Of a DNA stretch of 64,000 nucleotides, positions 23,662 through 37,122 are shown one piece after another. The position numbers were made by a program, and so were the translations under genes. Source of the DNA: Bacteroidales bacterium (GTDB taxonomy: Bacteria > Bacteroidota > Bacteroidia > Bacteroidales > P3); contig JAFSOU010000069.1 in assembly GCA_017443265.1 (NCBI GenBank), positions 1-64,000 on the forward strand. The letters are read 5' to 3'. The notes beneath the pieces were generated by a model, which did no database searches, was not told the origin of the DNA, and saw only the letters and a list, made by a program, of their open reading frames with translations. The stretch's first letter is position 1; each line of letters starts with the position of its first letter.

Positions 23662-24762
23662 ATGGGATTTTTCAAGAAAGTAAAAGACGGTTTGCTGGGA
23701 ACCGACGGCACTGGTGGCGGCAGCGGTCAGCAAGGGGTGATAACGGCACAAGAGCTCGTAGATCAGGCATTCGAACATTTCAAGATGCGGCTGAATGATT
23801 CCTCGACCGACATGAGCCTGCTTTTCCCCACAAGCATGATAATATATCTTAATCCGGAGGACTACAACGCACGAAAACAAGAATTTCCGGCACGTGCCAA
23901 CGACATCAAGAAAAAATGCATGAAGGAGGTCCGCACCCAAATCAGCGGCAATCCCGAATGGCAGGACTACATACCACATTCCAAATACTGGAAAATACAG
24001 TTTGTTGAGTTCAAGCCAGAATGCGTGATAAGTTCCGACACCGACACACATTTCTCTGTCGAGAAAGGACATGTGATGATTGTCTCCGACCTCTATGCCA
24101 ACGATTTGGGCGAATCCATCGGCGACAGCGCATCGTCGGGCGGACGCGTGGTAACCACGGTGCACAACATAAAAGGCACCACATCTTTGCAGAACCTTGC
24201 CATCAACCCCGACGCCTTCAAAGACGTAACAATATTGGGACAGAACTGTTTCCGCATAGAGTTTTTGCGCTCCGACCTCGCCGACACCACCAAAAACAAC
24301 AAACAGTCGGCGCCTCTTCACACTCAGACTCCACCGGCCTCCAATAATTATGACATAGCCACAGGCGTTTACAATGGCAACACGTCGAAACAGTCGAATT
24401 CGACCCCAAAAAAAGTTGCCGCCGAGCTGCAGATTTGGGACAGCTATTTCCTTGTAAACGGCCAAAAAGCCGACAAATACATCATAGAATCGGAAAAATT
24501 GCAGATAGCAGGCCCCAACGCCAATGCAAGCACCGACGGAGCTGAGCTGCTTAAAATCGATGACGACAGCATAATGAACCCGCATCTGAACATAAGATAC
24601 GACAACACAAACCAACGCTACCTCATTTCGGCTGTTGGCGACACAAAGCTCAACACACGGATTCTCGAGCGCAATGCCGACAACTGGTCCGAACTGCCCA
24701 ACAACTCGACAATTCTTTTAAACGGAGATATACAATTAAATTTCACTTTGAAAAATGTTTGA
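23662..24762 (+). CDS. FHA-like protein with FhaA-type N-terminal region
   Basis: A 366-residue cytoplasmic protein. It starts with a short amphipathic GFFKKVKDGLLG helix. Residues ~25-145 (TSMIIYLNPEDYNARK, then WKIQFVEFKPE) are reminiscent of the N-terminal DUF3662 region of actinobacterial FhaA; this is inference from pattern only. After a Thr/Asn/Ser-rich linker, residues ~255-366 look like a degenerate FHA domain: it keeps a DDDSIMNPHLNI segment comparable to the SxxH strand but lacks a clear GR motif. FHA domains bind phosphothreonine. The ATG at 23662 has an AGGAG element 8 bases upstream, unusual for this genome. The gene overlaps a small membrane-peptide gene and precedes a PP2C phosphatase. 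Confidence 0.65.
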   Translation: MGFFKKVKDGLLGTDGTGGGSGQQGVITAQELVDQAFEHFKMRLNDSSTDMSLLFPTSMIIYLNPEDYNARKQEFPARANDIKKKCMKEVRTQISGNPEWQDYIPHSKYWKIQFVEFKPECVISSDTDTHFSVEKGHVMIVSDLYANDLGESIGDSASSGGRVVTTVHNIKGTTSLQNLAINPDAFKDVTILGQNCFRIEFLRSDLADTTKNNKQSAPLHTQTPPASNNYDIATGVYNGNTSKQSNSTPKKVAAELQIWDSYFLVNGQKADKYIIESEKLQIAGPNANASTDGAELLKIDDDSIMNPHLNIRYDNTNQRYLISAVGDTKLNTRILERNADNWSELPNNSTILLNGDIQLNFTLKNV

Positions 24763-24849: not shown

Positions 24850-25965
24850 ATGAAAGAGATGAAATACTACGGCGAGACCAATATGGGTATGCGCCGCACC
24901 AACAACGAAGACGCTTTCGTGGCCCAGAAAATCTGGAACGACCGATTCATACTTTGCATAGCCATCGACGGGGTGGGTGGCTACGAGGGTGGCGAAGTGG
25001 CCGCCCAAATTGCTCAAGACTATATCCCCAAACACCTTGCCAGCGTTACCAACGACAACCCTCTCGAAGCCCTGAAAGAGGCTGTTGTGGAGGCCAACAA
25101 CCGAATCTGCGCCGAACGTCAGCGCGACACTTCGCGTCCTAACATGGCATGCGTGCTCAGCGCCGGCATTATCGAACTCGACAACAACGTCATCGACATA
25201 GTGCACGTGGGCGACTCCCGTATCTACCGATACGAAAACGGCAATCTCGAAAAGATAACCCACGACCACTCGCTGGTGGGCTACCGCGAAGAAATTGGCG
25301 AACTCACCGAAGATGAGGCCATGAACCACCCGCAACGCAATATCATCGACCGACTGCTGGGCGACACTCCGCATTCCACCACCGACCGCAACTTTTTCGA
25401 GGCCGCCAAATACCCCCTCGACGAAAACACACAGCTGCTTTTCTGCTCCGACGGACTCACCGACCTCGTCACCAGCGCCGAAATACGCGAAATTCTCGAC
25501 CAGCGCATATCCATACAGGAAAAAACCAAACTGCTTATCGACAAAGCCAACGCCAAAGGCGGCAAGGACAACATCACCGTGGTGCTTGCCATTGCCGAGA
25601 ATCCCAACGCCAAACCAAAACAAGCCGTTGTGGAGCCTCCGCGCCACCAACAGGAGAACAATATTGAAGATCGGCCCGCAGAAGGCAAGAAATCGCGCAA
25701 AACGCTGTGGATATGCCTTATTGCCCTGTTGCTAATAATAGCAGCCTTTGTGGGAGGCAATTTCTTGGCTACCAAAGGCGTGGTTTGCGTGCCACAGTCG
25801 CCGTCCCCAAACAAAGAAGCAGATACCACCATACTCAAAAAAGATTTAGATTCGTTGAATGGGTTGCTGAAAGAAGCCAACGACACCATTAATGAATTAA
25901 AAGGAAGAATAGAGGATGCGCGAAACTCCTTGTCGAATCCCCCAAAACACATAGCAAAACACTAA
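24850..25965 (+). CDS. membrane-anchored PP2C-type Ser/Thr phosphatase
   Basis: Metal-dependent protein phosphatase of 371 residues, similar in layout to PstP/Stp1. The catalytic domain (about 5-250) has the metal ligands and motifs in order: RRTNNEDAF (Asp21), IDGVGGYEGGE (Asp40, Gly41), VGDSRIYRY, CSDGLTD (Asp201) and GGKDNITV (Asp240). A basic, glutamine-rich linker leads to one transmembrane helix at about 286-308 and a ~60-residue extracytoplasmic coiled-coil-like tail. It would remove phosphates from Ser/Thr kinase targets, including the two kinases encoded downstream. The extracytoplasmic tail distinguishes it from soluble PP2Cs and resembles the anchored actinobacterial form. Confidence 0.92.
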   Translation: MKEMKYYGETNMGMRRTNNEDAFVAQKIWNDRFILCIAIDGVGGYEGGEVAAQIAQDYIPKHLASVTNDNPLEALKEAVVEANNRICAERQRDTSRPNMACVLSAGIIELDNNVIDIVHVGDSRIYRYENGNLEKITHDHSLVGYREEIGELTEDEAMNHPQRNIIDRLLGDTPHSTTDRNFFEAAKYPLDENTQLLFCSDGLTDLVTSAEIREILDQRISIQEKTKLLIDKANAKGGKDNITVVLAIAENPNAKPKQAVVEPPRHQQENNIEDRPAEGKKSRKTLWICLIALLLIIAAFVGGNFLATKGVVCVPQSPSPNKEADTTILKKDLDSLNGLLKEANDTINELKGRIEDARNSLSNPPKHIAKH

Positions 25966-26057: not shown

Positions 26058-29000
26058 ATGATGAAACGTAAAAACAACGGTTTTATACCACTTCTATTTG
26101 TAACCATAGTCCTATGCTTCGGTTTTATCACACTATACCACAACCAAAGCGCCTTTCTGAAAACGGTAGATGAGAACTACAAGACAAAACGTTCCGTCAA
26201 CTTGGAAAAAGGACTTCCGGCCACGGTGCTTAGCGAATTCCTTGTCAATCAGGACTATGTGAGCGACCGTCGCGACGCCGATTTCATTGCCAAACAGCTG
26301 ACCTCAAAAATAGACAGCGGCTACGCTCTGCCCAACCTCGGCGCCATCAACACCAGCCTATACAAGGTGCGTGCCTCGCTGGCCGACTCGCTGGGAGGAG
26401 CCCTTTTCCGAAGCCGTTGCATGGCATCCCGCGAAACCCTTGGCCTTGACCAAAACGTGCGGGCTCTCTACGCCAACCCAGGACTGCTGAAAACCGACAC
26501 TTTCCCGCACAGCGCAGGCAACAAAGAGCTGAAAGTAAAAGTGTTCCAAACAGACACTACCAACACTTTCTTTAACAGATTGCGAAAAAAAGTAGGCAAG
26601 CCAAAGAAAAAACCTGCCGCAGGAGTGCTTGTGTGCCTGCGTCAGCACGAGCTGGTGTATGCAAAACAAATAACCATCGACGGCAAGGACACCAACGTCA
26701 GATACACCGACACCACGGCACACGACACCGTTGTGGAATACGCTTTCACAAACAAAGAAGGGGAGGTGTCGTTCAAAATCTACGACAGCCTCAACTACAG
26801 CGTGTTGCCCGTAAAAGCAGGCTTCAACTACGGCTCGCCGAAAGGCACTTTGAAAAACAAAAAATTCGTTTTCACCGAAAGTCCTGACAAGATAAAACTT
26901 TTCGACACATACACCTACAAACGCCTCAAAGACGACGGGGCACTGACGGTGCGCACACCTAAGACCTACCGCAACTATCTGATTATCGCCTTTTTGCTAT
27001 TTGTGGCCATGTGGTGGCTGCTCTACGGCTTTGTATTGGCGCGCGACCGCAACACCAAACGCCAGAGCGACACCCTTATTATGGCTCTGCTGATGACCCT
27101 TACAGGCTTGGGACTGCTGTCGAAATTCGCGCTTGTCAATCCCGTTTCCGACAAATTGTTGGGCTGGGATACGCTCGTTGGCACCGTAATTGGCCTTGTG
27201 GCGATGATATTGATAGCCCGTTTCGATATGGTTAAGTTCTACAACAGCGGTATGCGGATTTTAGGTGTTTCGGTGGATTTCGATTTCGTGATGCAGTTTT
27301 TCCGCTGGTGCGGACTGCCTTTCGGCAAAAAATTGGACAATTTCAGCAACGACATACAGCGTCGTACACGCAACAGTTCCCTGCAGCTGTTCTGCAAACT
27401 GCTGTTTCTGTTGGTTCTGTTTTTCCTGCTGCCGGTTATTCTGCTTGTCAAACTGATAACATTTGTTTGTTCCAAAATTCCCAAAATCAGGGATTTAAGC
27501 GTGCCTCACGGTTTTGGTTATATGTTGCTGGCGTTGGCTTTGCTGGTGCTTCTGTTTTTCTTCGGTTCAGGCCCCGAAGGCAGCAACGCCAAGGTTAACC
27601 TCGGCCCGATACAGGTGAGCGAGCTGGCCAAACTGCTTACGATGTTCTTTGTGGCGGCTTTCTTCGCCGAGAACTCCGACACCCTTCAGGCTTTCGCCGA
27701 CAAGCAGTCCATTTTCGGGATGCGTCAGGTGAAACTGGTGCTTTTCATCCTTGCCTTTATGGTTGTGATGATGGGCGTTGCCGTGATGCTGAGCGACATG
27801 GGTCCCGCCATAGTGGTGATACTCTCGTTTATACTCATCTACAGCGTTGCCCGTCGCGACACAGTGCAGATGTTTATCGGCGTGGTTACCTTTATAGCAA
27901 TGCTTTTCCTTGCCTATCTGTTCAACCATTCCATAGGACTGATGGCCGTGGCCGCACTGGTGTGGCTTGTGGCGTGGGTAGCAATTAGTTGGACTCGCGG
28001 CAAACGCATCTACGAAAGTGCCGTTTTCTTCAACCTCATCATAGTGGCCTTCCTGTTCGGCGGTCCTTTGCTCGACACCCTTGGTTTCCACAACGAGGCC
28101 GAGCGTCTTACAAGCCGCAACGAAATGGTTTGGAGCGGTGTTTGGAACAACGATGTCAAAGGCGGCGACCAAGTGGCGCAAGGCTACTGGGCATTGGCCA
28201 GCGGCGGTTTATCCGGTCAGGGCTTGGGCAGCGGCCATGCAAGTGTGGTGCCCGCCTGCCATACCGATATGATTTTCACCAGCATAGGCGAGGAAATGGG
28301 TTGGATAACCCTTTTGCTGATAGTGCTTTGCATGGCGCTTTTGGTACACCGCGGACTGCTTATAGCACGCAAGGCGGGCAACCGTTTCGCTTTCTTCCTT
28401 GTGGCAGGTCTGGCCACGGTTACAGGCATACAGTTCCTTGTTATAATTTTAGGCAGTCTCGGACTTATACCGCTAACAGGCGTGGCGGTGCCGTTCCTGA
28501 GCTACGGCAAGTCGAGCATTGTGGTCAATATGATTGCCTTCGGGTTCATACTCTCGCTTTCGCGCGAAAAAGCCACCGAGCGTCAGGCGGAATATATACG
28601 CAGCAAATACGACGGCATCATAGCCGCCGGCAGCGCATCGTTCATAGCCGTGGGATTATTCATTGTCTGCTGGCTGTTCGCCTACCAGTTCTTCGCACGC
28701 GACAACACCCTTATCCGTCCCGCCTTTGTCACCAACAACCAAGGAGCCCGTGTGGCCGAGTACAACCCACGCATCGACATACTGATGCGAAAACTCGCCG
28801 CAGGCAACATCTACGACCGCAACGGCGTTGTGCTTGCCACCAGCGTGGACAGCATACTTGACAACAAAATGGTCGTGGATAAAATTGTGGAAGCCGGTAT
28901 CTCGGCCGAAGATGTGAAAAAAGCGCACCGTTACCCCAAGATGAGGTACTATCCTTTCGGCGACCAGATGTTCTTTATGTTGGGCGATTTCAACACAAAG

Positions 29001-30470
29001 GTGCTGTGGGGCAGCCACGACGACAATCCCTACGGCTACATGGCCGAAAGCCGTCATCTGGCAATGCTGCGCGGTTTCGACAACATAGCCCGCGACGAAT
29101 ACGGGAAACCCCGCAGAGACGTGCTAAGGGCGCGCAACTATATCTACAGTCCTTACCTTGCCGAACGCGGAGAGAAAGAGTTCCGCTACACACGCTACGA
29201 CTATTCGGCGCTTCTGCCCATGCTAAAAGCCGGCACCGAAAGCCGCAAGGTGCGCCAGTGGAACGAAAAACGTCCCGAACGCGACATACGACTGACCATC
29301 GACGCCAAACTGCAGGTGCGTATGCAGAACGCCCTTCAACAGTTCGCCGACACGCGCAAAAACAACTATATGCGTGTGTCCGTTGTGGTACTCGACGCCG
29401 CAAAGGGCGACCTGCTGTGCTCGGCAAACTACCCGTTGCCCAACCAGGACACACTTGTGGCAAAGAGCCGACTGCCATATTACAGCGACAACTTCAAAGA
29501 TTTCAAAGCCTATACCGACCGCGACCTTGGCACCACTTACCAGACCCAACCCGGTTCCACGGTCAAAGTGATGTCGGCTATGGCTGGATTTATGAAATTA
29601 GGCTCCGAAGCCACAGGCAAGTCATATATGGTGTATAGCGAGGAGAAAATCGACACCAAGCTTGGCGAGCCTACAGGAAATGTCAATCTTCACTCAGCCA
29701 TAGTGCAGTCGTCGAACTGCTATTTCGTAAATTCGGTGAACGACCAAAACTTATATACACAGCTCGGCGAGATATACAAAGCCACCGGCGTGCGTATCGA
29801 CCGCGAGGCCATCGACAAACGCGGACGCACTGTCATCGACAAATCGCTGACACCATATTTCTTCTACACCAGCAATATGTCTGACACAACCGTGTTCAAC
29901 GCCGAGGTGTCGGCCACCAGCCAACGCGGCACACATAAGTACAACAACTATATCGAACGACGCTCAAAAAAACAGCAATACGAAAAAATGAACTGGAGCC
30001 ATTGTGCTTGGGCGTGGGGACAGGGCACTTTGCGCGCCACACCTCTCAATATGGCACGTGTGGCTTCTATTGTGGTAAACAATGGCACTCTGGCACAGAC
30101 TCGTTACCTGTACAACGATTCGCTTCCACAAACCAATGTGTGCCCCAATTCGCTCGAACAGCTCAAATCGTATATGAAAGACCAAGCAAAGCTGAAAGCC
30201 GGAATCTCAAATCCCGCTATCGGCGGAAAAACCGGCACACCTGAACGTTCTCACGTTGTTCGCAACAGCAAAGGCAGAAAGGTGAAAACCAGCAAAAACG
30301 ACGCTTGGTACATCTTCTTCGTCGATAGCGACGGCGTAAAACAAAACAAAGCCAGCAAACTAGCCGTGGCAGTACGTATCGAAAGAGCTAACTCCACGTC
30401 GAGCCTCGCTATGCAACTATCACGCACTCAGGTTATTCCAATTCTTACAGAAACGGGATACATGAATTAA
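26058..30470 (+). CDS. fused SEDS glycan polymerase and class B penicillin-binding protein
   Basis: A single uninterrupted 1470-residue frame. One transmembrane helix (about 8-26) leads into a ~275-residue predicted periplasmic domain that I do not recognise. Residues ~305-860 form a polytopic SEDS (RodA/FtsW) domain with SELAKLLTMFF, LSDMGPA, candidate catalytic aspartates in NNDVKGGD, YWALASGGLSGQGLG and TDMIFTSIGEEMGW. A further helix (about 865-885) joins to a PBP2/PbpA-like transpeptidase with Y-D-R-N-G-V-V-L-A, and all three active-site motifs: Ser1167-T-V-Lys1170, S1218-S-N1220 and K1391-T-G1393. It therefore could both polymerise and cross-link peptidoglycan. The usual arrangement is two separate interacting proteins. 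It sits between the phosphatase and a second FHA gene. Confidence 0.9.
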   Translation: MMKRKNNGFIPLLFVTIVLCFGFITLYHNQSAFLKTVDENYKTKRSVNLEKGLPATVLSEFLVNQDYVSDRRDADFIAKQLTSKIDSGYALPNLGAINTSLYKVRASLADSLGGALFRSRCMASRETLGLDQNVRALYANPGLLKTDTFPHSAGNKELKVKVFQTDTTNTFFNRLRKKVGKPKKKPAAGVLVCLRQHELVYAKQITIDGKDTNVRYTDTTAHDTVVEYAFTNKEGEVSFKIYDSLNYSVLPVKAGFNYGSPKGTLKNKKFVFTESPDKIKLFDTYTYKRLKDDGALTVRTPKTYRNYLIIAFLLFVAMWWLLYGFVLARDRNTKRQSDTLIMALLMTLTGLGLLSKFALVNPVSDKLLGWDTLVGTVIGLVAMILIARFDMVKFYNSGMRILGVSVDFDFVMQFFRWCGLPFGKKLDNFSNDIQRRTRNSSLQLFCKLLFLLVLFFLLPVILLVKLITFVCSKIPKIRDLSVPHGFGYMLLALALLVLLFFFGSGPEGSNAKVNLGPIQVSELAKLLTMFFVAAFFAENSDTLQAFADKQSIFGMRQVKLVLFILAFMVVMMGVAVMLSDMGPAIVVILSFILIYSVARRDTVQMFIGVVTFIAMLFLAYLFNHSIGLMAVAALVWLVAWVAISWTRGKRIYESAVFFNLIIVAFLFGGPLLDTLGFHNEAERLTSRNEMVWSGVWNNDVKGGDQVAQGYWALASGGLSGQGLGSGHASVVPACHTDMIFTSIGEEMGWITLLLIVLCMALLVHRGLLIARKAGNRFAFFLVAGLATVTGIQFLVIILGSLGLIPLTGVAVPFLSYGKSSIVVNMIAFGFILSLSREKATERQAEYIRSKYDGIIAAGSASFIAVGLFIVCWLFAYQFFARDNTLIRPAFVTNNQGARVAEYNPRIDILMRKLAAGNIYDRNGVVLATSVDSILDNKMVVDKIVEAGISAEDVKKAHRYPKMRYYPFGDQMFFMLGDFNTKVLWGSHDDNPYGYMAESRHLAMLRGFDNIARDEYGKPRRDVLRARNYIYSPYLAERGEKEFRYTRYDYSALLPMLKAGTESRKVRQWNEKRPERDIRLTIDAKLQVRMQNALQQFADTRKNNYMRVSVVVLDAAKGDLLCSANYPLPNQDTLVAKSRLPYYSDNFKDFKAYTDRDLGTTYQTQPGSTVKVMSAMAGFMKLGSEATGKSYMVYSEEKIDTKLGEPTGNVNLHSAIVQSSNCYFVNSVNDQNLYTQLGEIYKATGVRIDREAIDKRGRTVIDKSLTPYFFYTSNMSDTTVFNAEVSATSQRGTHKYNNYIERRSKKQQYEKMNWSHCAWAWGQGTLRATPLNMARVASIVVNNGTLAQTRYLYNDSLPQTNVCPNSLEQLKSYMKDQAKLKAGISNPAIGGKTGTPERSHVVRNSKGRKVKTSKNDAWYIFFVDSDGVKQNKASKLAVAVRIERANSTSSLAMQLSRTQVIPILTETGYMN

Positions 30471-30593: not shown

Positions 30594-31658
30594 ATGAGCA
30601 CCTTTTTTGACAAAATAAAGAAATTCCTTAACCCCACCGACGAGCCGGAGGTGGAACAAAGCTCGGCAAACGTTGACACCCGTGAAACAAAAAACGAGGC
30701 TCAGCCTGCCAAACAGAACGCCACACCCGTGGAAACGCCGAAAAACGACACCCAATATGCGCCAGCTGAACCTGCTGAACCAGAACCAGTTGCAACTGCC
30801 GAAAATATAGAAAAGAGTGGGGTGGAGGAAACTCCGAAAAACGACACCCAACAACCTTCATCCACCACAGAGGCAAAGTCGGAACAACAACAGCAAACCG
30901 CACCGCAGAGCGCCCCCGCTGGCCCGAAAACCGACGAAGTGTCGGCACCGCAAATAAGGGCATCGGTGATAAAAAATGTAGTACAGATGCTAAAACCCCT
31001 GCTGGGCAAGGACGATTTCAAAGGCATCGCTTTCTATGTGGAACAGCACAACTACGCTCTGACTTTGGACAAGGAGTTTGAAAAACTGCTCCGTATCCAA
31101 TTCGACGACATGGGGTTCAGATCGCTCGGCAGCGGTAAAATAGAAGTGTTTGAAAGACCGTCGTCGGCCGACGCCCACAATGTGTACCGCGACATAATCT
31201 TCGCCGAAATCATCACCAAAGAATCCAACATACACCACGCACCGCGCAAGGCACGCATAACTGTTTTCCGTGGCAAAGGCAGCCTGAAACAAACGGAATA
31301 TATCCTCGACACCGCCGTTGACAACAAAAAAGTGTATTGTATCGGACGTGGCGAAATAAGCACCAAAGGCGGAGTGTTCCGCGACAACGACATTGTGATA
31401 AACGAAGCCGAACCCGATCCCGCCATCGCCAACCTCAACAACTACGTGAGCAGCTCCCATGCCAATATCGAAGTGCGCGACGGCGGTTTCTATCTTAAAG
31501 CCATGCAGGGCGGCATAGCTAACGGCAACGCCACCAAGTATATCCGCGACGGCAAGGTGTTCAAACTCGAGACCGACTCGATGTCGTACCCCCTTCGCGA
31601 CGGCGACCTTATCGAACTCGGACGCTCCGTGCTGCTTAAATTCGAAATTCTTATGTAA
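30594..31658 (+). CDS. FHA domain protein with Pro/Glu-rich linker
   Basis: A 354-residue cytoplasmic protein. The N-terminus (STFFDKIKKFLN) is an amphipathic helix like that of the first FHA gene of the locus. Residues ~20-130 are low-complexity, rich in Pro, Glu, Thr and Gln, and include the octamer ETPKNDTQ twice. A globular middle domain (about 135-240) is followed by an FHA domain (about 245-354) with the diagnostic IGRGEIS, YVSSSHANIEV and LRDGDLIELG strands. It should bind phosphothreonine peptides made by the downstream kinases. The start is the ATG preceding STFFD; an upstream in-frame TTG falls in repeat sequence. The next gene begins 15 bases after its stop. Confidence 0.87.
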   Translation: MSTFFDKIKKFLNPTDEPEVEQSSANVDTRETKNEAQPAKQNATPVETPKNDTQYAPAEPAEPEPVATAENIEKSGVEETPKNDTQQPSSTTEAKSEQQQQTAPQSAPAGPKTDEVSAPQIRASVIKNVVQMLKPLLGKDDFKGIAFYVEQHNYALTLDKEFEKLLRIQFDDMGFRSLGSGKIEVFERPSSADAHNVYRDIIFAEIITKESNIHHAPRKARITVFRGKGSLKQTEYILDTAVDNKKVYCIGRGEISTKGGVFRDNDIVINEAEPDPAIANLNNYVSSSHANIEVRDGGFYLKAMQGGIANGNATKYIRDGKVFKLETDSMSYPLRDGDLIELGRSVLLKFEILM

Positions 31659-31673
31659 CAACAATCGCAAGTC

Positions 31674-32447
31674 ATGAAAAAAATACGTTTATTCGCCCTT
31701 TTGGCCGCAATACCTTTGGTAATGCATGCCCAAGGCCCCAAGCCGATAGTCAACGACACCGTTTGGGTGCGGGGCATTCCCATTGTGTTGGTCAAAATCG
31801 ACGCCGGCACGTTCCAGATGGGTGCCACCACGGAGCAGAGCGTGGCAGCCAGCCGCGATGAGAAACCCGTTCACAGCGTAACCCTCGGCAGTTATATGAT
31901 AATGCAGACCGAAGTAACGCAGGAGCTATGGCAGACCATAATGGACAACAACCCAAGCCCGTTGAAAGGCAGCAACAGGCCCGTGCACAACGTCAGCTGG
32001 TACGACTGCATGGAGTTTATCGAAATGCTTAACGCCGTAAGCGGACGCCAATTCCGTCTGCCCACCGAAGCCGAATGGGAGTACGCCGCTCGTGGCGCCG
32101 AACGCAGCAAAGGCTATAAATTCTCCGGCAGCAACAACGCTGAAAAAGTGGCGTGGAACGCCGAAACCCTCGGTGGCGCCGAGCTTTATTACGTACAGCA
32201 GAAAATGCCCAACGAACTCGGTATCTTCGATATGAGCGGCAACGTGTGGGAGTGGTGTTCCGACATCTACGGGGCCTATTCCGACAAGGCACAGACCAAC
32301 CCCGCCGGTGCCGAAGCAGGGGAGAACCGCGTGCTGCGCGGTGGCAGCTGGCAGACACCACGCAACAAATGCCGCGTAAGCTGCCGTACCAACGCCATAC
32401 CCTACGAACGCCGCGAAGAATACGGATTCAGACTGGTGCTGGAATAG
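31674..32447 (+). CDS. exported SUMF1/FGE-fold protein, probably non-catalytic
   Basis: A 257-residue protein with a signal peptide (cleavage after H-A-Q near residue 20) and a formylglycine-generating-enzyme-like fold: GTFQMGA, EVTQELWQ, PVHNVSWYDCMEF, RLPTEAEWEYAARG, GNVWEWCSD and RVLRGGSW. The paired cysteines that form the catalytic site of true FGEs, expected shortly after RGGSW, are not in the usual arrangement here (the segment reads WQTPRNKCRVSC), so formylglycine formation is doubtful. In Bacteroidota this fold often serves as a structural or binding module. It lies 15 bases after the FHA gene and 58 before the kinase gene, so it is probably part of the same operon, acting on the periplasmic side. 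Confidence 0.87.
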   Translation: MKKIRLFALLAAIPLVMHAQGPKPIVNDTVWVRGIPIVLVKIDAGTFQMGATTEQSVAASRDEKPVHSVTLGSYMIMQTEVTQELWQTIMDNNPSPLKGSNRPVHNVSWYDCMEFIEMLNAVSGRQFRLPTEAEWEYAARGAERSKGYKFSGSNNAEKVAWNAETLGGAELYYVQQKMPNELGIFDMSGNVWEWCSDIYGAYSDKAQTNPAGAEAGENRVLRGGSWQTPRNKCRVSCRTNAIPYERREEYGFRLVLE

Positions 32448-32505: not shown

Positions 32506-34803
32506 ATGGCTTCGATAAACGACGAATACGAAAAACTGATGCTGATAGGGCAGGGGAGTTTTGCCAGCATCTGGAAAGTGCGCCACCGCAAATACGGCTA
32601 CATCCGCACACTTAAGATACTCAACACCCCCGTACAGGACGAAAACGACCATGCCTACCAGCAGTTCGTAAAGGAATGCACCGTGCTGCTGAATATCGGC
32701 AACGGTGCCAACTACAACATTGTGCACATATACCAGCCGCGGCTTATCGACAACCGTGCTGTGGTGGAGATGGACTTTATCGACGGCGAGACACTCGACC
32801 AGTACCTGAGGCGCAACAAGTTTATGCCCATCGACGAGGTGATGCGCTTTATCGGCGACATAGGCGGGGCTTTGGCATACTGCCACCACGACATATACAA
32901 ATACATGATGAATCCCAACGAGGACGACCTCAAGTCGGACCCAGACGACGGCCGACGCTACATCATCGACGAAGCCACCGAACAACGTTTGGTGCGGAAA
33001 TACTCCGTAACCCACAACGACCTGCACAGCAACAATGTGATGCGCCGCGAAAACGACGGCAGCTACGTGCTATTGGATTTCGGCTTGGCCATACAAAATG
33101 GCACAGCAGTGAAATCCAGCGCAATGCGTGGTGGAGCTTTGGAGTATATGGCTCCCGAAAAGTTCGACGACAACAACGTTATCACCACCCAGAGCGACAT
33201 CTACAGCTTTGGCATACTTATGTACGAAGCCCTTGCCGGACGAGTGCCCTTCGAAATCGATAAAAAACGCCTTTCCAGCAACCCCGTTATGGCGCAATAC
33301 GAAATAATGCAGCAGCATAAAACGGGCATACCGCCCGAAATAGAGCCCCTGCGCCGCGAGGCTTTCGAGGCCGCAAACCCCGGACAGGAGTATGTGAAGG
33401 ACTTCCCCGACTGGCTGGAGCAGATGATAATGCGCTGCCTCGAAAAAGACCCCGCCCGCCGCTACACCGACGCCAAGGAACTTATGAATGAGTTTTATAG
33501 TAATAGGCGTGTGTTTGTTGATGAAAACTCGTTATCTGAAAGAGTTAATACACAATTAGACAATAACAATTACGATGTTTTTATTTCGTTTTCGACCCAA
33601 GATAGCGTTATCGTTGACAAAATATGCAATTATTTGGAAAAGACTGGGTTGAGATGTTTTGTATGTACTAGGGACATACCAAAGAGTGTTGTTTGGGCTG
33701 AGGCTATCACAGAAGCTATAGAAAATTGTAAGATGTTTCTTGCTGTTTTTTCCAAGCATTTCGATGATTCCAAGCAAACAGACCGAGAATTGGAACTCGC
33801 TTCGGAAGCTGCCCTACCAATAATTTGTTGCCGGATAACAAATGATGAAATGACTGGCGCAACAAAATATTATTTAAAAAATATCAATTGGATTGATGCC
33901 TATACTGATACTGAAGCTGGATTTTGCAAAATACTAGCTGAAATACAACGCATTAATGGTGAAAATTTTGTAAAAGACAAACCACAGCCAACGGATTTTA
34001 GTCTTGTGTCCTGCCCCGGCTGTGGCAAAATGATAAGCAAAGAGGCATCGTTCTGTCAATATTGCGGTTCCCATCTACATTCATCCGACGGCAACAAGCA
34101 GGTGAAATGCAACGGCTGTGGCAATTTGATAAGCAGTGATGACAAAGAATGTCCATATTGCGGCTATCCGGATTGTACACAGGAATCAAAACAAGGAGTC
34201 CGCAAGACACCAGATTCAACACAAAGTGTCAGCGGCAAGAAAAAATCCAAAAAATGGGTTGTTTGGCTGGTGCTTGGCATTGTCTTGACAGTGCTTGCGA
34301 TAATAGGCGTGGGGATAGCTTTGTTAGATAATAATGTACCAGAAGAGTGGACTGAAACTGAAGAAGCTAGTGATACTTTGGAATTCGTTGACCTTGGTCT
34401 GCCCAGCGGAACAAAATGGAGCAACATTAATCAGACAAACCCCAACGACAGTTACGATTTCTACACCTACGACGAGGCAGTGCAGCAGTTTGGCGACCAA
34501 CTGCCCACAAAAGCGCAGTTCGAAGAACTAAAAGAAAAGTGCGTCATAGTATGGGACGAATCTGCTCGTGGTGCTCGTGGCTGTAGGTTTTATGGCCCCA
34601 ACAACAACAGCATTTTTATTCCCTACGCGGGCTACCGCGATTGCAATGGCGGTGTGAACGGCGTGGGTTCCAGCGGCAACTATTGGTCGTCCACGCCCGG
34701 CGTTTCGGAGCTCGCGTGGAACCTCTACTTCTATTCGGGCGAAGTGTACGTGAACGGCAACTCTCGGTGCTGCGGGCAGTCCGTGCGCCTCGTCCAAGAT
34801 TAG
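32506..34803 (+). CDS. Ser/Thr kinase with TIR, zinc-ribbon and lectin-like domains
   Basis: A 765-residue multidomain protein. Residues 1-325 are a Hanks-type kinase: GQGSFASIW loop, Lys37, THNDLHSNNV (Asp172, Asn in place of the HRD arginine), DFG 191-193 and GGALEYMAPEKF, plus a ~35-residue insertion before the catalytic loop. Residues ~356-485 are a TIR domain (YDVFISFSTQD, CFVCTRDI, DRELELASE). Two four-cysteine zinc ribbons follow (about 503-522 and 535-553), then one transmembrane helix (about 583-606) and an extracytoplasmic C-type-lectin-like module (about 624-765, starting VDLGLPSGTKW and ending QSVRLV) of a kind common in Bacteroidota. The TIR-coding part is visibly richer in A+T than the kinase part. 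The kinase half is a close paralogue of the next gene. Confidence 0.88.
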   Translation: MASINDEYEKLMLIGQGSFASIWKVRHRKYGYIRTLKILNTPVQDENDHAYQQFVKECTVLLNIGNGANYNIVHIYQPRLIDNRAVVEMDFIDGETLDQYLRRNKFMPIDEVMRFIGDIGGALAYCHHDIYKYMMNPNEDDLKSDPDDGRRYIIDEATEQRLVRKYSVTHNDLHSNNVMRRENDGSYVLLDFGLAIQNGTAVKSSAMRGGALEYMAPEKFDDNNVITTQSDIYSFGILMYEALAGRVPFEIDKKRLSSNPVMAQYEIMQQHKTGIPPEIEPLRREAFEAANPGQEYVKDFPDWLEQMIMRCLEKDPARRYTDAKELMNEFYSNRRVFVDENSLSERVNTQLDNNNYDVFISFSTQDSVIVDKICNYLEKTGLRCFVCTRDIPKSVVWAEAITEAIENCKMFLAVFSKHFDDSKQTDRELELASEAALPIICCRITNDEMTGATKYYLKNINWIDAYTDTEAGFCKILAEIQRINGENFVKDKPQPTDFSLVSCPGCGKMISKEASFCQYCGSHLHSSDGNKQVKCNGCGNLISSDDKECPYCGYPDCTQESKQGVRKTPDSTQSVSGKKKSKKWVVWLVLGIVLTVLAIIGVGIALLDNNVPEEWTETEEASDTLEFVDLGLPSGTKWSNINQTNPNDSYDFYTYDEAVQQFGDQLPTKAQFEELKEKCVIVWDESARGARGCRFYGPNNNSIFIPYAGYRDCNGGVNGVGSSGNYWSSTPGVSELAWNLYFYSGEVYVNGNSRCCGQSVRLVQD

Positions 34804-35169: not shown

Positions 35170-37122
35170 ATGTCCTTTTTGAACAAATACGAAAAACTCC
35201 AGCTGATAGGCAAAGGCAGCTTCGCCACCATCTGGAAAGTGCGTCATGAGAAGTACGGATACATCCGCGCTTTGAAAGTCTCCAACGAGATGGTTGAAGA
35301 TGAGAACGACCCCGCCTACCAGTCGTTCCTCAACGAGTGCAAGGTGCTTCTTAAAATAGGCAACGGTTCGCATCCCAACATCGTGCATATCTACCAGCCC
35401 GACCTTATCGACAACCGTGCCGTGGTGGAGATGGACTACGTGGAGGGCGAAACAATGGAGAAATACCTCTCCCGCGTCAAATTCGTTCCCATCGACGAAT
35501 TTTACCGTTTTTTCGACGAGATTGTCGGCGCTTTGGCATATTGCCACCACGACATCTACCGTTTCCTTATGGACCCCAACGTCGATGACCTCGTTACCGA
35601 CCCCAACGACGGACAAAAATACATCATCGACGAAGCCACCGAACGCCGCCTTGTTGAGAAATACGGCGTCACCCACAACGACATACACTCCAACAACGTA
35701 ATGCGCCGCAGCTACGACGGCAATTTCATACTCCTCGACTTCGGCTTGGCCATTCAGGACGGCAAGGCCGTGAAAAGCAGCTCGCGAAGGGGAGGGGCTC
35801 TGGAATATATGTCGCCCGAAAAGTTCGACGACAGCAGCATAATCACCACACAGTCCGATATTTACAGTCTCGGTGTGCTGTTGTACGAAGTCCTTGCCGG
35901 ACGTGTGCCGTTCCAGATGGACCCCAAACGCTATTCGAGCAACCCCACCGCCGCCGGATACGAGATTATGACAGCCCACAAAACTGCCGTGCCGCCTCCC
36001 ATAGAACCCCTGCGCCGCGAGGCTTTCGAAAAAGCCCATCCAGGCGAGACATACGTCAAAGACTATCCCGACTGGCTTGAAGATTTGATAACCCGTTGTC
36101 TGGAAAAAAATCCCGCCAACCGTTTTGCCGACGCCAAACAGCTTCTCGACGAATACAAAGCCAAGAAAGCACTGGGAAACGACACGGTCTCTTCCCGCAC
36201 TTTCCCCACAAGCGCTCCGGCACCGAAAATCGAAGAGCCTGTCGAAAACAAACTCTCCGACACAACAATTCCCACACCTCCTCCAATGCCTCCGCGACCG
36301 GGTGCAAGGACCAACCCTCCCGTAACGCCACCCCCGCAAAGAGTTACACCTCCTACCAAAAAGAAAAAGTCACACGCTGGTCTGATCGTATTTCTGATAC
36401 TGCTGTTTTTGGCACTGTTGGGAGTAGGCGGTTATTTCGCTTACCAGTGGTACGAAGATTCGCAGTACGCACATTATTATACATACGTATCGAGCCTTAA
36501 CCTGCGCTCGTCGCAGAGTTCAAAAAGCAAGAGCAACATAATAGAAGCTCTGCCTTATGGCACAAAACTTTCCATGCTGTCGTACGGCAACGACTGGTGC
36601 GAGGTGAAAGCCAAAACCAGCAACGGTAAGCAAACAGGCTATGTGTCAACCGATTACATCCTTTCCGAGGACGATTACTACCTGCTTGACGGCATTTTCG
36701 GCAACAGCGAAGCGCGCGAAATGATTGCCGAAAAGCGTTGCCGCAAGGCGCTTCTCAACTATTTTAAAGAAAATAACTACCGTGGCGAACTCAACAACGA
36801 TGTGTATAGCGCACAAGAGCAGTTCTCCGACACCCGTCAGATTTGGCAGGTTTCGTGCTATAGCAGCAAAAGCTCATACAACTCGGTGTATTACTGCAAA
36901 GAGTACGAAAAAAATTCCAAATATAATGATATGATTGTGATAATCAGCCGCATACAGAATGGCATAACCACAGAGCGCAAATTGGTTTATTTCTATTTCG
37001 ACTCCGAAGGCAAGCCATATGTAGTGCACGAGGAAGTGCCCGATTCCGACAGGATAAAAAGTGTTTCCGTAACCACAAGTTGGTGGACCGGCAATAAAAC
37101 TTTCGATATCGAATATTATTAA
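35170..37122 (+). CDS. transmembrane Ser/Thr kinase with SH3b sensor
   Basis: A 650-residue kinase with PknB-like topology. The kinase domain (1-325) closely parallels that of the preceding kinase gene: GKGSFATIW, Lys36, THNDIHSNNV (Asp171), DFG at 190-192, GGALEYMSPEKF, and the same ~35-residue insertion before the catalytic loop. A Pro-rich linker (about 345-400) leads to one transmembrane helix (about 404-425). Outside the membrane, residues ~437-495 resemble a bacterial SH3 domain (YVSSLNLRSSQSS, NDWCEVKA, TGYVSTDYI), a fold often binding peptidoglycan, followed by a ~150-residue domain I do not recognise. Where PknB has PASTA repeats this protein has SH3b, suggesting wall sensing. It is transcribed separately from the preceding kinase. 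Confidence 0.88.
   Translation: MSFLNKYEKLQLIGKGSFATIWKVRHEKYGYIRALKVSNEMVEDENDPAYQSFLNECKVLLKIGNGSHPNIVHIYQPDLIDNRAVVEMDYVEGETMEKYLSRVKFVPIDEFYRFFDEIVGALAYCHHDIYRFLMDPNVDDLVTDPNDGQKYIIDEATERRLVEKYGVTHNDIHSNNVMRRSYDGNFILLDFGLAIQDGKAVKSSSRRGGALEYMSPEKFDDSSIITTQSDIYSLGVLLYEVLAGRVPFQMDPKRYSSNPTAAGYEIMTAHKTAVPPPIEPLRREAFEKAHPGETYVKDYPDWLEDLITRCLEKNPANRFADAKQLLDEYKAKKALGNDTVSSRTFPTSAPAPKIEEPVENKLSDTTIPTPPPMPPRPGARTNPPVTPPPQRVTPPTKKKKSHAGLIVFLILLFLALLGVGGYFAYQWYEDSQYAHYYTYVSSLNLRSSQSSKSKSNIIEALPYGTKLSMLSYGNDWCEVKAKTSNGKQTGYVSTDYILSEDDYYLLDGIFGNSEAREMIAEKRCRKALLNYFKENNYRGELNNDVYSAQEQFSDTRQIWQVSCYSSKSSYNSVYYCKEYEKNSKYNDMIVIISRIQNGITTERKLVYFYFDSEGKPYVVHEEVPDSDRIKSVSVTTSWWTGNKTFDIEYY

Follow-up and report, generated by a model that had tools for sequence, protein, structure and literature searches.

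A natural SEDS–class B PBP fusion of Bacteroidota as a probable third peptidoglycan synthase within a Ser/Thr-phosphorylation cassette

The coupling and activation of SEDS polymerases and class B penicillin-binding proteins (PBPs) are still not settled and have been approached by means of engineered fusions (PMC6207328; PMC10449877). The window studied here, a stretch of 64,000 nucleotides from a Bacteroidales bacterium (contig JAFSOU010000069.1, assembly GCA_017443265.1), contains a gene (26058-30470, + strand) in which both partners are joined in a single open reading frame (ORF). This raises the question of the role of such a protein. Sequence comparisons indicate that it is probably a dedicated third peptidoglycan synthase, placed in a conserved Ser/Thr-phosphorylation cassette related to the FhaA-FhaB-PstP-RodA-PbpA-PknA/PknB operon of Actinobacteria. 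This kinase, phosphatase and forkhead-associated (FHA) cassette, overlooked in the initial annotation of the stretch, is the strongest clue to the function of the fusion.

The fused chain and its catalytic residues

The gene, delimited by its frame, its Pfam domains and homologous fusions, is open from the ATG to the stop codon and encodes 1470 residues. The chain begins with a membrane anchor and a periplasmic module of about 260 residues, followed by a SEDS glycan polymerase and then a class B PBP, both complete. Both Pfam families are recognized in it (FTSW_RODA_SPOVE, 2.1e-38; Transpeptidase, 4.9e-16). With 132.7 bits against a cut-off of 26.4 for PF01098, the protein belongs to the SEDS family. 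It remains below the NCBIfam cut-offs of both the FtsW equivalog TIGR02614 (144 bits; cut-off 337.5) and the RodA equivalog TIGR02210 (119 bits; cut-off 336.7). Pfam finds no GT51 domain, typical of class A PBPs, in the protein. PBP_dimer (PF03717) is not matched by Pfam either, yet the fold match to PBP3 spans residues 584-1141 of the model, including the region ahead of the transpeptidase.

The transpeptidase domain has the three intact motifs of a class B PBP, located from the frame and the alignment: SxxK with the acyl-enzyme serine (S1167-K1170; 29556-29567), SxN (S1218-N1220; 29709-29717) and KTG (K1391-G1393; 30228-30236). The initial annotation, which had described one continuous SEDS and class B PBP frame with all three motifs preserved, is thus borne out. 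The catalytic S, K and N and the lysine of KTG do not vary among 57 aligned fusions, 5 of which have KSG in place of KTG. On the SEDS side, the catalytic aspartate is D737 of an HTD motif (codon 28266-28268). In the alignment, it corresponds to D262 of E. coli RodA, a residue the catalytic role of which is taken from PMC10449877, and to D297 of FtsW, and it is invariant in the 57 SEDS rows. The NNDVKGGD stretch, where this aspartate had first been sought, is ruled out by the alignment to E. coli RodA and FtsW: it lies in extracellular loop (ECL) 4, past the conserved R687 and away from D737. The QxxExxK residues of ECL2 (Q519, E522 and K525; 27612-27632), which align with Q111, E114 and K117 of E. 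coli RodA, are also invariant in the 57 SEDS rows.

A third SEDS-PBP pair in a phosphorylation cassette

The same genome encodes an ftsI-murE-mraY-(..)-ftsW-murG cluster and, apart from it, a rodA-mrdA pair. Therefore, the fusion is a third SEDS-PBP pair beside ftsW/ftsI and rodA/mrdA, as the initial annotation had suggested might be the case. The PBPs of both canonical pairs carry PBP_dimer and transpeptidase domains, and one further transpeptidase protein is found in the genome. The canonical FtsI (L148:2504-4840) ends in a C-terminal PASTA domain, which is absent from the cassette kinases examined.

The neighbors of the fusion are encoded on its strand. Upstream are FHAup (23662-24762, 23662 being the likely start), in which sequence comparison distinguishes an N-terminal domain and a degenerate FHA-like C-terminus, and a Stp1/PstP-type PP2C phosphatase (24850-25965). 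Downstream are FHAdn (30594-31658), a canonical FHA protein according to Pfam with conserved G, R, S, H and N positions, an FGE-sulfatase-type protein (31674-32447) and two Ser/Thr kinases, one with a TIR domain and zinc ribbons (32506-34803), the other with a predicted periplasmic SH3_3 domain (35170-37122). According to domain searches and hydropathy, the PP2C (at its C-terminus) and each kinase have a transmembrane (TM) helix. Among 42 fusion loci with sufficient flanking DNA, a kinase is present in 41, PP2C in 40, FHAup in 39 and FHAdn in 35, always on one strand. The FGE-type gene has a homologue in only 2 of these loci and is lineage-specific in the run. When the cassette genes of the window were compared by BLAST with the other fusion neighborhoods, the same set was recovered nearly everywhere; the remaining frequent ORF clusters look, from their strands, mostly like antisense shadow frames. 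Moreover, the FHAup profile matches 14 of 395 genomes sampled across the phylum (ten at full length, four by the FHA end only), and all 14 are among the 15 genomes of that sample carrying the fusion. Because the Arg and Ser normally present in the phosphothreonine pocket are missing from FHAup, as read from the aligned sequence, this protein may not bind phosphothreonine.

Once Bacteroidota are set aside, the highest-ranking hits of the scan for fusions are largely actinobacterial, many of them in PP2C-RodA-PbpA-kinase-kinase loci. In M. smegmatis, as in Actinobacteria generally, the pstP cluster contains fhaA, fhaB, rodA, pbpA, pknA and pknB (PMC6554272). PbpA was reported to be a substrate of PknB, and FhaA to act on MviN following PknB action (PMC3989709). 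The Bacteroidota cassette gathers the same activities in one cluster, with co-directional FHA, PP2C, SEDS, PBP and kinase genes in the window and in about 40 of the 42 loci. It differs from the actinobacterial operon in that RodA and PbpA are one chain rather than separate proteins, to which an N-terminal periplasmic module is added, in that the kinases examined are devoid of PASTA domains, and in its variable gene order. In the SEDS tree, the fusions group with operon-type actinobacterial RodA against all other RodA and FtsW (support 100/99). This split is retained without long branches (99/94) and after excision of an insertion described below (SH-aLRT 98.9). It can tentatively be proposed, with rather less confidence than the role of third synthase, that Bacteroidota possess a phospho-regulated third wall machine descended from the same ancestor as the mycobacterial PknA/PknB-PstP-RodA-PbpA system, with a single-chain synthase and a periplasmic regulatory module of its own.

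Several observations weigh against the role and relationship proposed here, and some of them would fit a fusion that arose within Bacteroidota from the RodA and PBP2 of this phylum, the likeness to the actinobacterial operon being convergent. A rare insertion of two TM helices is common to the fusions of Bacteroidia and to Bacteroidia RodA, as expected from a Bacteroidota RodA origin (spacing of 99-129 residues versus 49-53), and the PBP half is not resolved with actinobacterial PbpA (81/25). Nevertheless, fusions from other Bacteroidota classes are without the insertion, the SEDS trees, including those without insertion or long branches, separate the fusions from Bacteroidota RodA, and a tree constrained to group them is rejected (p-AU 0.023). 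In addition, in a locus from another Bacteroidota class (L058), the FHA gene beside the fusion encodes an FhaA_N-FHA protein according to Pfam. A purely Bacteroidota origin is thus unlikely. Also on the unfavorable side, the homology between FHAup of the window and FhaA is weak (hhalign E 5.8e-4, probability 29), and among 31 FHAup members from Bacteroidia, Pfam finds FHA in 4 and FhaA_N in none; profile comparison is only suggestive of FHAup being FhaA. PASTA domains are found in none of 12 cassette kinases examined. Finally, the fusion is present in only 2 of 393 genomes sampled across the order, window included. It is rare in Bacteroidales and, because of this patchy distribution, dispensable at the clade level.

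It may also be asked whether the kinase and FHA neighborhood is incidental, the fusion being an active third synthase that merely adds wall-synthesis capacity. The presence of both canonical pairs in the genome would agree with this, as would a Flavobacterium genome (L079) in which the fusion has no recognized cassette neighbor. However, the one-strand retention of the cassette in about 40 of 42 loci, the confinement of FHAup to fusion genomes within the sample and the equal gene set kept by Actinobacteria (PMC6554272) make an incidental neighborhood improbable, slightly more so than a Bacteroidota origin.

Domain architecture and proposed function

The chain was modelled with AlphaFold2 as two separate parts, residues 1-330 (pLDDT 88.6) and 330-1470 (pLDDT 77.4). 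The first part contains an N-terminal TM helix (residues 9-42; 26082-26183; pLDDT about 95, hydropathy peak at 8-26), a periplasmic helical subdomain (residues about 55-145; 26220-26492), a transthyretin-like sandwich of CarboxypepD_reg/CnaB type (residues 154-278; 26517-26891) and a second TM helix leading back to the cytoplasm (residues 301-329; 26958-27044), also visible in the hydropathy profile. The sandwich is identified by fold and family: its best match among transthyretin/CnaB-type folds is 3e8v (VIA-align Z 10.3, 81 residues, rmsd 2.0), and CarboxypepD_reg is matched in 28 of 42 fusion homologues. The fold search with the N-terminal model listed a match over the sandwich alone and none for the helical part 55-145. 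The periplasmic domain of the initial annotation can no longer be called wholly unrecognized.

The SEDS domain follows (residues 336-850; 27063-28607), delimited by PF01098 and VIA-align, and the corresponding part of the model is close to FtsW (8p1u_A, Z 31.5) and to RodA (6bar, Z 29.6). It includes the predicted two-TM insertion, of about 50 residues (roughly 611-678; 27888-28091), located ahead of ECL4 from the helices of the model and from the D580-R687 spacing, which is 107 in the window fusion versus 49-53 in most SEDS proteins. Among the SEDS proteins examined, this insertion was seen only in Bacteroidia fusions and standalone Bacteroidia RodA, though the tree separates both groups. A TM helix of the PBP (residues 851-881; 28608-28700), supported by model and hydropathy, connects to the pedestal and transpeptidase (residues 882-1470; 28701-30467; PF00905 and VIA-align), the PBP part resembling PBP3 (7onk_B, Z 31.4). 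The junction near 28650, where a check for an artefact had been advised, is genuine: it coincides with this helix and the alignment runs through it. The structure prediction that had been advised bears on two parts rather than on the full chain, with matches to FtsW and RodA for the SEDS half and to PBP3 for the PBP half. In the model, the helix count would be compatible with an internal N-terminus and an external PBP.

By analogy with RodA-PBP2, it can be proposed that D737 drives lipid II polymerization and that S1167 cross-links the nascent strand. The cassette kinases would phosphorylate cytoplasmic regions of the proteins of the cassette, and these marks would be read by the FHA proteins, which would then recruit the synthase or switch it; PP2C would reset it. 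The helical and transthyretin-like module may serve as a built-in input or anchor, partly replacing separate regulators; the initial annotation had envisaged that a regulator such as MreC might act at its place. The conservation of this N-terminal module, unlike what is seen in canonical synthases, could also be accounted for if the protein were mainly a wall sensor acting through the module and the phospho-cassette, with synthase activity reduced or lost. A dead enzyme is, however, not expected to keep the catalytic residues of both activities invariant in 57 sequences, which makes the sensor explanation very improbable.

Compared with the third synthase proposed here, E. coli RodA-PBP2 (PMC10449877) and the engineered fusions, which are functional (PMC6207328), are alike in the SEDS-then-PBP order of the engineered proteins, in the aspartate of HTD and in the predicted fold. 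They differ in that the natural E. coli genes are separate and outside a kinase cassette, and in that activation is tied to MreC (PMC6207328). A natural single-chain pair, in which the stoichiometry is fixed and a periplasmic module is added, is suited to structural work. Ser/Thr phospho-control of wall synthesis is best known from Actinobacteria and Firmicutes. The cassette would extend it to Bacteroidota such as Pedobacter, Mucilaginibacter and Spirosoma, in which it is directly testable.

Occurrence of the fusion and precedents

The genome is a draft of 134 contigs, but the idea that an assembly or sequencing error fused two neighboring genes is refuted by independent assemblies, since the same intact fusion occurs at 87% in a genome of the same genus (G028) and since it recurs in 57 aligned sequences, some from single-contig genomes. 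Alignment is also continuous across the SEDS/PBP junction. A second genome of the genus has the fusion at 93-95%, divided between two contig ends; no match was obtained in a third. Beyond the genus, the fusion occurs in a different genus of the same family (42%) and, nearly full length, in a different family of the order (41%). Of the outcomes that were to speak against the fusion in the initial annotation, a joining error and absence from close relatives, neither is thus observed. The phylum sample contains 15 fusion-bearing genomes out of 395, several with the fusion on a single contig. A scan of named genomes yielded about 47 fusions or fusion parts, in Spirosoma, Larkinella, Fibrella, Pedobacter, Mucilaginibacter, Niabella, Niastella and Segetibacter, as well as in a Flavobacterium and in metagenome-assembled genomes of a Phocaeicola and of a member of Bacteroidales.

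The SEDS-PBP fusion as such is already known, contrary to the novelty implied by the initial annotation, since natural single-ORF fusions are mentioned in passing, with a Rhodococcus genome (RHA1) as source (Nygaard 2023, PMC10449877), and since an Atopobiaceae genome provides another case. As cited there, the RHA1 protein has the same order as that of the window, SEDS then class B PBP in one ORF. In the Atopobiaceae locus (L111), an upstream FHA protein and a PP2C precede a 961-residue fusion, again SEDS then class B PBP, followed by a PknB-like kinase with apparent PASTA repeats, the FHA and PASTA assignments being read by eye. Unlike the window protein, this fusion has no N-terminal periplasmic module of that type. 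Because its SEDS half nests with actinobacterial RodA in the SEDS tree, this fusion seems to have arisen separately. The second, apparently independent case points to the joining of both partners within this operon as a solution that can recur. The Atopobiaceae fusion (L111:7770-10655) has ESD in place of HTD, with the catalytic aspartate retained. Its transpeptidase half matches, at 1e-161, the structures of a "putative peptidoglycan glycosyltransferase" transpeptidase from Atopobium parvulum (4jbf, 4n1x, 4qjg, 4r0q and 4ra7), the residue numbers of which are 523-949. These structures look like the transpeptidase half of an Atopobiaceae fusion; only the PBP half is solved in them, and it shares 20-21% identity with the window protein. 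The literature searched, which left out most subscription journals, yielded no article describing a SEDS-PBP fusion from Bacteroidota that carries a periplasmic module and lies in a kinase/PP2C/FHA cassette, so that this combination appears undescribed there.

Some features of individual cassette proteins may be added. The TIR domain of one kinase prompted consideration of an anti-phage defense function. This was rejected, as the PADLOC matches are to generic kinase and PP2C models only, and the synthase and FHA proteins of the cassette have no PADLOC match. This kinase (32506-34803) has, besides its TIR domain, two zinc ribbons and TM helix, an additional C-terminal region, and it appears to be lineage-specific, a near relative (L063) having just a similar ORF of 170 residues at this place. 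In both cassette kinases (32506-34803 and 35170-37122), the catalytic loop reads HND-[LI]-HSNN instead of HRDxKxxN and is nearer to the APH type, with an insertion before the loop. Finally, in two loci from other Bacteroidota classes (L059:11479-12750 and L060:11435-12802), a Swt1-like HEPN domain is present at the N-terminus of the FHA protein that follows the fusion.

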